Origin: Hymenobacter cheonanensis
GTDB lineage: Bacteria; Bacteroidota; Bacteroidia; Cytophagales; Hymenobacteraceae
Assembly: GCF_030581075.1 (NCBI RefSeq)
Contig: NZ_JAUQSW010000014.1
Coordinates: 1-64,000, forward strand
Length of the DNA: 64,000 bases
Direction of reading: 5' to 3'
Below, piece after piece: positions 5,102 to 62,372 of this stretch; the first letter of the stretch is position 1; every line of letters starts with the position of its first letter. Under the pieces are notes generated by a model, which saw nothing but the letters and a program-made list of their open reading frames with translations, was not told the DNA's origin and did no database searches. A program made the translations under genes and the position numbers.

Positions 5102-5124
5102 AAAAATTAACGCGTTAAAGTTCT

Positions 5125-5233
5125 TCATGCTGAGCGGAGCGCAGCGTAGTCGAAGCATCTTGGCAGGGCACGAGTAAACTGTTCAACGAAACGAACAAGA
5201 TGCTTCGACTTCGCTGCGCTGCGCTCAGCATGA
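5125..5233. repeat. Inverted repeat, family A copy 1
   Basis: Arms 5125-5162 and 5196-5233 (38 bases, two mismatches) begin TCATGCTGAGCG and end CGAAGCATCTTG. They flank a 33-base spacer. The element sits between the two SGNH genes. Three more copies of the family are at 24671-24759, 40773-40887 and 60935-61059. Confidence 0.95.
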
Positions 5234-5279
5234 CGAGATATTTACTTCATTTTCAGTTTTTAATTTTCTCCTCTGCTTC

Positions 5280-12036: not shown

Positions 12037-12411
12037 ATGGACTACTTCAACGACCCCGAGCTAAACGGCAAATACCTGGGCACGATTACCAAGGATTTTG
12101 CCACCGCGTCCGACACCATTAAGGAAGCGTCGTACCAAATCCGCAAGCGTGAGATTTCGCAGTATCCGGTGTTCGTGTTTGCGCGGCAGGCGGTGCAGCT
12201 CGGCAGCCTGCTCATCAACGCCGACGAGCAGGAATTGCAGTGGCACGTCTTCGCCAGCTACCTCGAAATACTAGCCCAGCAAGGCATCGTGGACCCCGAG
12301 AAAATCGAAGATTTCATCGGCACCTGGAAAAACCCGGATGAGTTTTGCTGCCTCTTCGTGGTGGATGAGGAGTTCACGAATTTCGTGTACATCCCCTACC
12401 CGGAAGACTGA
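12037..12411 (+). CDS. Conserved-looking hypothetical protein
   Basis: 124 residues, soluble, no signal peptide and no motif I recognise. It starts MDYFNDPELNGKYLGTITKDF and ends FVYIPYPED. The predicted mix is alpha/beta with an internal amphipathic segment (HVFASYLEILAQQGIVDPEKI). Base composition at third positions is like the genome, so it looks native. It is divergent from the AT-richer gene at 11578-12000. Its stop codon overlaps the left arm of a perfect 45-base inverted repeat that also reaches the stop of thiL. Confidence 0.75.
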   Translation: MDYFNDPELNGKYLGTITKDFATASDTIKEASYQIRKREISQYPVFVFARQAVQLGSLLINADEQELQWHVFASYLEILAQQGIVDPEKIEDFIGTWKNPDEFCCLFVVDEEFTNFVYIPYPED

Positions 12412-12558
12412 CCGCAGATTTAACGGATTAAACGGATTGCGCCGATACGCCCGCCTGCGCGGGCTGGCTATGCTTACGACCAAGTGGCTGTAGCAAGTAG
12501 TCAGCTCGCGCAAGCGGGCGTATCGGCGCAATCCGTTTAATCCGTTAAATCTGCGGTC
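12410..12558. repeat. Long inverted repeat, family B, overlapping two stop codons
   Basis: Arms 12410-12454 and 12514-12558 are perfect 45-base complements (GACCGCAGATTTAACGG at the ends). Pairing continues inward to about 12471/12497 with one mismatch and three G-U-compatible differences, so almost the whole element folds as one hairpin. Its outer bases overlap the TGA of the 124-aa gene and the TAG of thiL. Confidence 0.95.
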
Positions 12559-23988: not shown

Positions 23989-24675
23989 CTAGACCAGCAG
24001 CCGGTCCACGGTCCAGTAGGCGGCCACCAGGCCGATAACTATCGACACGGGCACCACCACCCGCGCCCGGTACCAGGGCCGGTCGGCGGCCCAGCGCCCA
24101 ATCAGCAGCCAGCAGAGCAAAATAATGGTGACCTGCCCCAGCTCGACGCCCACATTAAACGAAATGAGCGAGCCGAAATAGTCTTTCTTCGGCAGGCCCA
24201 GCCCCGTGAGCGCGCTGGCGAACCCCATGCCGTGAATCAGCCCGAAGCCGAACACAATGGCTAGCCGCCACGGACTTAGCTTGGTGGTAATGATATTTTC
24301 CAGCGCCACAAACAGGATGGAGAGCGCAATAATCGGCTCCACGACGCTGCTCGGCGGCCGAATGAGCCCGTACATAGCCAGCCCCAGCGTGATGGAGTGC
24401 GCCACCGTGAAGGCCGTGGCCTGAAACAGCACCGGTTTCAGCTTGGGCTCCAGGATATAGAGGCTGACAATGAACAAAATATGGTCGAAGCCCAGCGGCA
24501 AGATGTGCGTGAAGCCCAGCTGGATGTAGGTCCAGAAAATCTGGGTGCGCGAGAGCTTGCTCAGGTCGGCATCGATGACGTGGGCGGCGGCTGGCAGGGC
24601 TAGCAGCAGGAGCGCTGGCACGAGCACCCAACCAGTGCACCTTATACCTGCCCTTCTTACACAAAAAGACGTCAT
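23989..24675 (-). CDS. HupE/UreJ-like membrane protein
   Basis: About 228 residues from the ATG at 24675. A signal-like segment ends in PAAAHV, followed by several membrane helices with the family's His motifs: TYIQLGFTHILPLGFDHILF, AFTVAHSITL, and GFGLIHGMGFA. HupE/UreJ proteins are nickel or cobalt permeases; Bacteroidota versions like this are less well characterised. The frame stays open to 24756, but those extra residues are a translation of family-A repeat copy 2. The ATG at 24675 is itself the last bases of that repeat; a GTG at 24627 is the other candidate, directly before the hydrophobic segment. Likely co-transcribed with the TPR gene upstream and the receptor downstream. Confidence 0.85.
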   Translation of the reverse strand: MTSFCVRRAGIRCTGWVLVPALLLLALPAAAHVIDADLSKLSRTQIFWTYIQLGFTHILPLGFDHILFIVSLYILEPKLKPVLFQATAFTVAHSITLGLAMYGLIRPPSSVVEPIIALSILFVALENIITTKLSPWRLAIVFGFGLIHGMGFASALTGLGLPKKDYFGSLISFNVGVELGQVTIILLCWLLIGRWAADRPWYRARVVVPVSIVIGLVAAYWTVDRLLV

Positions 24676-24759
24676 GCTGAACGTAGTGAAGCATCTTGGC
24701 TGCTTTACTAAAGCGAACCTACCGAAGCGACCAAGATGCTTCACTGCGTTCAGCATGAC
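24671..24759. repeat. Inverted repeat, family A copy 2
   Basis: Arms 24671-24699 and 24731-24759 (29 bases, one transition) begin GTCATGCTGAACG and end GCATCTTGG around a 31-base spacer. It sits between the TPR gene and the HupE-like gene and contributes the probable HupE start codon. Confidence 0.95.
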
Positions 24760-24797
24760 ATGCTTTTATAGTGGTAGTGTACCGTACCTAATGCTTC

Positions 24798-26129
24798 CTA
24801 GCGCACGGCCAGCATCTTTTTGCCCTCGGCCTCTACCTCGGGGTTGAGGTAGGGCGCCGTATTCAGGGCCTTGGTAATGAGGGCCTGGCCCTCGGCCACC
24901 TGGCCAGTTTTGGTGAGGATGAGGCCGGCGCGGCACAGCAGCACGGGGTTTTGCGAGTTGGTGCGGCGGGCCACAGCCATGTACTTCTGGGCCTCCTTAA
25001 AGTCGCCGCGCTTGTAGTAAACCCAGGCCAGGGTTTCGTTCACGTCGATGTTGTCGGGGCGGCGGGCGTACTCGATTTTGGCGTGTTCCAGCGCCTTGTC
25101 CAGCTCGCCGGTTTTGAGGTAGGCGTAGGCCAGCTCGCGGTCGGTGTAGTGGCCTAGCTGCTCGTTGTCGTTGGCATCTTTGGCGGCGGCGGCCAGCATC
25201 TCCACCGATTCGCGGGCCATTTTATTGGCCTCCTCGGGCTGGTGGTTGAGGCGGTACACATCCACCAGCTCATCGGTAAAGGCGTAGTCCTTCACCGTAG
25301 CGCGGGCCAGGTTCAGGTCTTTGATGGCCGTGGGATAATCGTGGCGGGCGGCGGCCACCCGGGCCAGCCCCGCCAGCGCGTAGGCGTAGTTGGGGCGCAT
25401 GGCCAGCGCCTGCTGGTAATAGCCTTCGGCCTCGGGCAAGTGGCCGCTCACTTCGTAGAGGTGGCCCAGCGCCACGCGGCTCCACTCGGTTTGCTCCAGG
25501 CCGGGGTAGCCGGCTTTCACGGCCTTGTCCATGGCGTCGATGGCGCCGGGCACGTCGCCATAAATCTCGCGCAGGTAGCTCACCCGGGCGTAGGCCGTAA
25601 GGTCGGGGCGCACCTGGTTCATCTTATCGGCCGTTTGCACGGCTTCGGGGTAGCGGCCCAGCTCCACGTTGGCATCGGTGAGCAGGCCGTACACGTAGCC
25701 GCTGCTGGGGTTAATTGCCTGCGCCTGCTGGGCCAGGGCTAGCCCCTGCGAAAAGTGGTGCTGCGTGAGGCTCAGCGAGGCCTGGCAGCACAGGGCCTCA
25801 AAGTTTTCGGGGTCCGTCTTCAGCACTTGCTGCAAAAGCTCCATTGCCGCCGCGTCGTAATACGGGTGGTTGCCAGTAATGCGGCCCTCCTGCATGTAGG
25901 CCTCGGCCAGCAGCAGGCGGCTTTTCTGGTCGCTGGGGTCGGCGCGCAGCCTGGCCAGCAGGCCCTGCATCGAGGCTTTGGTATTCACCCACTCGCCGCC
26001 CAGCGCCAGGCGCCCAATGCGGTCTTTGGGCTCGGGCAGGCCGGGCGGGCCCTGCTTCTTGAAAAAAATAATGGCTAGCACCGCCAGCCCGAAGGCCAGC
26101 AGCAGCGCAGGGTAAAGCTTTTTACGCAT
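24798..26129 (-). CDS. TPR-repeat protein with N-terminal membrane anchor
   Basis: 443 residues. The membrane segment is at about 6-23 (ALLLAFGLAVLAIIFF), after which the protein is almost wholly tetratricopeptide repeats, for example HLPEAEGYYQQALAMRPNYA and DKALEHAKIEYARRPDN, up to about residue 430. It would be an inner-membrane or periplasmic scaffold. TPR proteins of this type occur next to HupE-like genes in Bacteroidota; here the HupE-like gene follows on the same strand, separated only by a family-A repeat. A structural role in metal import is inference. Confidence 0.85.
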   Translation of the reverse strand: MRKKLYPALLLAFGLAVLAIIFFKKQGPPGLPEPKDRIGRLALGGEWVNTKASMQGLLARLRADPSDQKSRLLLAEAYMQEGRITGNHPYYDAAAMELLQQVLKTDPENFEALCCQASLSLTQHHFSQGLALAQQAQAINPSSGYVYGLLTDANVELGRYPEAVQTADKMNQVRPDLTAYARVSYLREIYGDVPGAIDAMDKAVKAGYPGLEQTEWSRVALGHLYEVSGHLPEAEGYYQQALAMRPNYAYALAGLARVAAARHDYPTAIKDLNLARATVKDYAFTDELVDVYRLNHQPEEANKMARESVEMLAAAAKDANDNEQLGHYTDRELAYAYLKTGELDKALEHAKIEYARRPDNIDVNETLAWVYYKRGDFKEAQKYMAVARRTNSQNPVLLCRAGLILTKTGQVAEGQALITKALNTAPYLNPEVEAEGKKMLAVR

Positions 26130-36688: not shown

Positions 36689-36757
36689 TTAAATGCCAAA
36701 AGTGGGATGACAAACATCTGTCAGTCATATATTTATCATCCCACTTTTGGCATTTAA
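36689..36757. repeat. Inverted repeat, family E
   Basis: Perfect 22-base arms 36689-36710 and 36736-36757 (TTAAATGCCAAAAGTGGG and onwards) surround a spacer with a small nested hairpin TGACA-AACATC-TGTCA. AT-rich relative to the genome. It lies 44 bases past the glycosyltransferase stop and may end its transcript. Confidence 0.92.
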
Positions 36758-40736: not shown

Positions 40737-40772
40737 AGCCTTTTAGGAAGTGCCTTCTAGGAAGTTGTTCTC

Positions 40773-40887
40773 CCGTCATGCTGAGCGCAGCGCAGCGCAG
40801 CCGAAGCATCTTGGCCGGGCATATCAGGGCCGGTAAACGGAGCGGCCAAGATGCTTCGGCTGCGCTACGCTACGCTCAGCATGGCGG
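40773..40887. repeat. Inverted repeat, family A copy 3
   Basis: Arms 40773-40816 and 40844-40887 (44 bases, three transitions) carry the same ends as copy 1 (TCATGCTGAGCGCAGCG, CGAAGCATCTTGG). It lies between the Wzz-like and Wzy/ligase-like genes, both plus strand. Confidence 0.95.
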
Positions 40888-40946
40888 AAAAAATGATTGC
40901 TCCCCTACCTTCATTAGCCCTCATTGCTATTTATTAGCTAGCTCCC

Positions 40947-52586: not shown

Positions 52587-52661
52587 AAGTATGAGTTATG
52601 ACGTGTGAGTTATGAATTGCTCACCGAGTAACTCATAACTCACACGTCATAACTCATACTT
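52587..52661. repeat. Inverted repeat, family D
   Basis: Perfect 29-base arms 52587-52615 and 52633-52661 built from repeated TGAGTTATGA units around a 17-base spacer. AT-rich against the genome. It fills the gap between the convergent lipoprotein and DAHP synthase genes and probably ends both transcripts. Confidence 0.93.
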
Positions 52662-60934: not shown

Positions 60935-61059
60935 CACCATTGTCATGCTGAACGCAGTGAAGCATCTTGCATGGCGCAGTAAGTAAATCGTTGACTTGAC
61001 CAAATGTCCTTTCAACGGTGCGAGCAAGATGCTTCACTGCGTTCAGCATGACAATGGTG
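60935..61059. repeat. Inverted repeat, family A copy 4
   Basis: Perfect 36-base arms 60935-60970 and 61024-61059 (CACCATTGTCATGCTGAACG and onwards, ending CATCTTGC) around a 53-base spacer. It fills most of the gap between the RND permease and adaptor genes. Subtype like copy 2. Confidence 0.96.
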
Positions 61060-62285: not shown

Positions 62286-62372
62286 TGTCCTGGCGAGGCG
62301 AAACGATGAAGCAAGTGCACCGAGACGAGCTGTTCTGGTGCGCTTGCTGCGTCGTTTCGCCTCGCCAGGACA
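62286..62372. repeat. Inverted repeat, family C
   Basis: 36-base arms 62286-62321 and 62337-62372 (TGTCCTGGCGAGGCGAAACG and onwards; three mismatches) around a 15-base spacer. It sits between the adaptor and outer-membrane factor genes. Confidence 0.94.

Follow-up and report, generated by a model that had tools for sequence, protein, structure and literature searches.

A palindromic repeat that probably supplies the translation start of a HupE/UreJ-like gene in Hymenobacter

The window analysed here is the opening 64 kb of contig 5 in a Hymenobacter genome of 5.36 Mb. Within it, an ORF for a HupE/UreJ-like membrane protein (hereafter hupE) follows a co-directional gene for a TPR protein, and a palindrome at 24663-24767 lies between the two. 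The features concerned are as follows:

23989..24756, minus strand: ORF of the HupE/UreJ-like membrane protein (255 aa; PF13795 HupE_UreJ_2, E 8.3e-47)
24798..26129, minus strand: gene for the TPR protein, upstream of hupE and co-directional with it
24663..24767, no strand: REP-like palindrome of family A, with arms at 24663-24705 and 24725-24767
24754..24756, minus strand: ATG within the 5' arm that shares the HupE frame; if it is used, the whole palindrome is coding (255 aa)
24673..24675, minus strand: start candidate of the initial annotation, an ATG at the palindrome's 3' outer end that is likewise in the HupE frame
24625..24627, minus strand: alternative GTG, in frame, 14 residues from the Ala-His site

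The PF13795 score of the ORF (159.2 bits against a curated cut-off of 24.5) places it among the HupE/UreJ proteins. The palindrome has 43-nt arms that are 86% complementary and a 19-nt spacer, and its core (24672-24758) is bounded by outer TCATG and CATGA motifs. On the minus strand the end of the repeat reads ...TTCAGCATGACG, and its ATG (24675-24673) shares the frame of the HupE ORF (24756..23989), so that sequence and ORF frames confirm what the initial annotation had said of the position and frame of this codon; the GTG at 24627 is likewise in frame. That GTG had been named as the only other reasonable start, which does not hold, since the other arm holds a further in-frame ATG, at 24756, and the hupE frame is free of stops through the whole palindrome. 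The mechanically called ORF begins at ATG 24756, three codons downstream of an in-frame TAA. The Ala-His site lies 30 residues from ATG 24675, 57 from ATG 24756, and 14 from GTG 24627, and a start at the GTG would leave no basic residue ahead of the hydrophobic segment. In the predicted RNA fold, both ATGs have an unpaired probability of 0, which agrees with the earlier suggestion that the hairpin covers the start codon, and GTG 24627 is the least structured of the candidates. A promoter and terminator scan gave no hit at hupE, although its stem and loop limits may not suit so long a hairpin.

Orthologues were sought in 120 genomes of the genus, the window's own genome included, and their upstream regions were compared after rows with an identical 120-nt upstream stretch had been dropped as duplicates. 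The window's clade comprises 15 species with 100/100 support in a tree of 1197 columns and 8 outgroup rows. For orthologues of at least 70% identity, we counted the distance from each ATG to the Ala-His site, leaving out ATGs fewer than 14 residues from it. Outside the clade, an ATG at a distance of 14 residues or more exists in 48 of 51 orthologues, the nearest lying 19-43 residues away (median, 26), and three (L067, L072, and L092) have none. Inside the clade, members other than the window's also show 49-63 residues. A repeat-less orthologue starting at or after the position of GTG 24627 would have spoken against the initial annotation, and none was found among the orthologues read; five (L016, L017, L067, L072, and L092), however, lack an ATG ahead of the signal segment and so need a GTG or TTG start, unless their sequences are in error.

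Within the clade, the TPR-hupE gap holds either of two palindrome families, assigned partly by eye. Family A is present in L009 (the window's own locus), L010, L018, and L020, with a 3' half in L022; family B is present in L012, L013, L014, and L019, with a 5' half in L021; and L011, L015, L016, L017, and L106 have no repeat. The hupE frame is open through all eight full repeats, as read by script in L009, L010, L012, L014, L018, and L020 and by eye in L013 and L019, two degenerate copies that the pair detector missed. An in-frame ATG lies upstream of the repeat in L012, L013, L014, L018, L019, L020, and L021; in four of these (L012, L013, L014, and L021) none lies within or downstream of it, so that the repeat must be translated there unless a TTG or GTG serves as the start. 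Openness of B-type palindromes was rejected as evidence on its own, since 48 of 102 of their frames are open anyway.

In L009 and L010, the first in-frame ATG sits in the 5' arm. L011 is the sister of the window's row within a group that also holds L010 (supports 98/90 and 97/95); it has lost the hairpin, and its sole in-frame ATG is the repeat-end ATGACG, which gives MTFCYKPKCAGLWVLLLLLL, a plausible signal segment. Because L009 and L010 share the repeat and L011 is nested in their group, this ATGACG is most simply a remnant of the repeat. The repeat-less L015 starts with ATGGCGTTC (MAFVYKQ), similar to the ATGACGTTC of L010 and L011 (MTFCYKQ in L010). Outside the clade, none of the four script-detected family-A repeats (L024, L028, L093, and L095) is open, and all four precede a conserved ATG. 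Three further repeats, in L094 and, of other kinds, in L025 and L029, leave the hupE frame open although they, too, lie ahead of a conserved ATG, showing that openness can arise by chance. By parsimony, with half repeats counted, there were at least seven changes of repeat state at hupE and at least seven at the second locus described below; since orthologues share ancestry, their counts are not independent.

When the palindrome was searched against the own genome, it had at least 85 matches, with strands counted apart, among the best 40 of 168 first-look candidates scored; 40 stretches were fetched, 35 of which yielded 36 two-armed copies while 5 held no clean pair, and the genome may contain further copies. 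The outer sequence of the repeat, GTCATG.../...CATGAC, puts one ATG at each end, and the distance between the two ATGs is divisible by three in 10 of the 36 copies. By a simple codon-score gene call, 34 copies overlap no gene; the neighbouring genes, counted by eye on the same call, are co-directional for 19 copies, convergent for 13, divergent for 2, and unclear for 2. The caller places the hupE start after the repeat and so cannot settle starts. About a quarter of the copy, strand, and frame combinations (51/216) are free of stops, which sets the family-A background. Sixteen gene-like frames (codon score ≥50, a cut-off chosen after the list was seen) are open to the end of a repeat, and only two, hupE and one other, are open through it; a role for the repeat as a general start donor was rejected on these numbers. 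Among the matches listed in three genomes, 17 further stretches were chosen by open-frame length, which does not amount to a survey, and in two of them (L257 and L262) the palindrome is open through into the scored frame; that of L262 (G000:C16:196200-199300), a family-A palindrome, has a weak coding score of 16.

A TTT follows the core within 12 nt in 23 of the 36 copies and an AAA precedes it in 22; 17 copies have both, in the manner of a bidirectional terminator. The 10 nt outside each core match as inverted repeats at 5.11, against 3.90 for shuffled partners (shuffle maximum, 4.53; 36 copies). The genome's single Y1_Tnp (RAYT-like) match (L159, G000:C11:49261-49485) is flanked by palindromic repeats of its own that are unlike family A, and was rejected as the family-A mobiliser on that account. 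The window itself holds another family-A copy, with perfect 36-nt arms (60935-61059), two related GC-richer palindromes (CATGCTGAGCG...; 5122-5236 and 40768-40892), and strong inverted repeats of other sequence (12410-12558, 36689-36757, 52587-52661, and 62286-62372).

Another copy in the own genome (L132, on G000:C16) is open through the repeat and begins a 390-aa protein encoded downstream of a CcmE-like gene; the protein has no Pfam match. The gene was matched in 66 of the 120 genomes, and we read it at 64 places, namely 63 genomes plus one paralogue, leaving out the fragmentary or weak matches of G018, G046, and G071. The script found a full family-A repeat at 13 of the 64 places, and 12 of these 13 are open with the 5'-arm ATG in frame; the frame is kept even though the repeats vary in length (85, 87, 90, 91, and 94). 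The outer 3' ATG shares the frame at 6 of these 13 places. L220 has a closed repeat, where only an ATG in the 3' arm can serve as the start, and the paralogue (L253) is similar. L191, derived by an internal deletion, retains the 3' ATG alone and is sister to the full-repeat L193 (SH-aLRT 99, in a quick tree). In the L190-L195 group the ATG arrives together with the repeat, and in the nearer repeat bearers a hydrophobic segment is encoded directly after it (MTFFFALLLF in L192). Repeat-less L200, L204, and L217 have, by eye, a different hairpin with a T-run in the same place, with the frame of the gene open; set beside the repeat bearers, they look like hairpin replacement at one site.

The third locus is a gene for a radical-SAM/B12-binding protein, in which a family-A palindrome lies in frame in mid-gene. 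It was found in 7 of the 10 clade genomes searched, the own genome included (L274, G000:C15:21977-22690, a copy missed by the pair detector), with a remnant in G079 and an empty site in G028 and G106. Measurement of the G084 palindrome gave 40-nt arms with 98% complementarity; the others were read by eye, that of G102 being degenerate. The segment concerned has 97-118 residues with the palindrome, 84 with the remnant, and 64 without, and it contains no in-frame stop in any of the 10 genomes. Judged from these alleles, translation of the palindrome is hard to avoid.

At any single locus, an in-frame ATG at the end of a repeat is expected, by our estimate, about once in three times; the weight comes from the orthologues and the two further loci. 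On these comparisons, we think it probable that a REP-like dimer was inserted and kept, and that it supplies the start and the n-region of hupE. A head-to-head dimer would have entered the short TPR-hupE gap and would have been retained because it left hupE a usable in-frame start; the loss of harmful insertions would explain why in-frame ones persist. HupE translation would then begin inside the repeat, whose sequence would form the front (n-region) of the signal segment, and initiation, with both start codons sealed in the hairpin, would probably be weak or conditional. As against GTG 24627, a start within the repeat is most likely, given the orthologue distances, and the initial annotation's proposal that an inserted repeat has become coding sequence is supported. 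Of the two ATGs, 24675, on which we are about evenly divided, has in its favour the deletion derivatives and the signal-segment length, and 24756, a credible though less probable choice, the preservation of the frame; both may be used. Across the three loci, family-A palindromes are captured occasionally as coding sequence, such capture being exceptional.

A sharper form of this explanation, in which translation starts at ATG 24756 only, the hairpin is coding throughout as in the palindromic elements of Rickettsia, and 24675 is an internal Met, is a real possibility that we would nevertheless not put first. Since the frame is usually open through the whole palindrome elsewhere, translation may indeed start at 24756 and continue across the hairpin: 16 of 17 full family-A repeats (4 in the hupE clade and 13 at the second locus) are open with an in-frame 5'-arm ATG, against a background of about a quarter of frames open, and the radical-SAM gene shows such palindromes being translated. 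L011, L191, and L220, however, have no start available except at or within the 3' arm, and the 57 residues before Ala-His exceed the 19-43 seen outside the clade, even if clade members with 49-63 exist.

It is unlikely that ATG 24675 is instead the ancestral hupE start, beside which the repeat was inserted without adding anything, a reading that overlaps with the preferred one on the start codon. The likeness of the repeat-less L015 start to those of L010 and L011 fits it, as does the fact that the end of the repeat is itself CATGAC, but the position of L011 within the repeat-bearing group makes its ATGACG most simply a remnant, L014, L019, and L021 keep a likely ancestral start (ATGGC near the TPR stop) upstream of the repeat, and in the L190-L195 group the ATG comes with the repeat. 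Least probable of all is that the repeat stays untranslated, as an intergenic REP that serves as a terminator or mRNA stabiliser, with HupE starting at the least structured candidate, GTG 24627, and the in-frame ATGs accidental: the intergenic position of 34 of the 36 copies, their flanking TTT (23/36) and AAA (22/36), and the conserved ATG downstream of the hupE repeats outside the clade all suit it, but it leaves 14 residues without a basic one where the nearest ATG of 48 orthologues leaves 19-43, L011 retains the ATG though its hairpin is lost, all eight full clade repeats are open, and the terminator scan, with its limits on long hairpins, was negative here.

With the start placed inside the repeat, an N-terminus predicted as MLNAVKHL..., for instance, can be genuine, and start codons under hairpins call for experimental start mapping. 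The three loci, with their full, shortened, and empty alleles, allow comparative tests of how selfish palindromes turn into coding sequence and into starts of translation. More speculatively, GTCATG...CATGAC head-to-head REP dimers may in Hymenobacter have taken the place, time and again, of the start codon and n-region in genes for exported and membrane proteins, because the element has an ATG at each end, can be open in several frames, and codes for a basic peptide; the hairpin would then gate initiation. We hold this wider idea only tentatively. If true, it would be a recurrent route from selfish palindromes to translation starts, mirroring the GTAG REPs that provide TAG stop codons (PMC3733652).

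Among known elements, family A resembles the CGTC-tagged REPs, which are reported from Bacteroidetes too (Di Nocera et al. 2013, PMC3733652). As described in the available part of that paper, the two have in common (i) the terminal tag (CGTC, TGTC, or CCTC in that class), which is CGTC in 38 and TGTC in 22 of the 72 family-A arms (60/72); (ii) a complementary AT closing the stem on its outer side (AT beside the tag in 69/72 arms; closing AT, 65/72); (iii) the head-to-head dimer form; (iv) a location mostly between co-directional or convergent genes (19 and 13 of 36); and (v) the lack of association with tyrosine transposase genes, the single Y1_Tnp being flanked by other repeats. They differ in the stem, which is 8-9 bp with a 4-5-nt loop in CGTC-tagged REPs and, in one family-A consensus arm, 5 + 2 bp with an internal loop, and in the CCA tail, in place of which family-A arms end, by eye, in CTTG or CTCG. 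With stem and tail different, we say that family A resembles a CGTC-tagged REP and do not file it as a member. CGTC-tagged REPs are mostly intergenic, and they also occur inside ORFs and at ORF N-termini, with the caution that in the N-terminal cases a downstream translation start is possible (PMC3733652); start-codon donation is a putative family-A trait that we did not meet in the part of that paper at hand. The case in PMC2229807, from what is accessible of it, concerns a different element, and the present loci allow a comparison among orthologues in which the repeat is full, deleted, or absent. The open-licence PMC literature, as far as its accessible text goes, yielded no report of coding repeats of this kind in Hymenobacter. 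The best functional analogue of family-A capture is provided by the Rickettsia palindromic elements (Ogata et al. 2000/2002), which are translated in frame within unrelated genes (reviewed in PMC10969869). Most family-A copies found here are intergenic, Rickettsia belongs to another phylum, and the likeness is one of function and not of compared sequence; it lies in a palindrome translated in frame within a gene, as in the radical-SAM gene with its empty-site orthologues, to which family A seemingly adds the donation of start codons.
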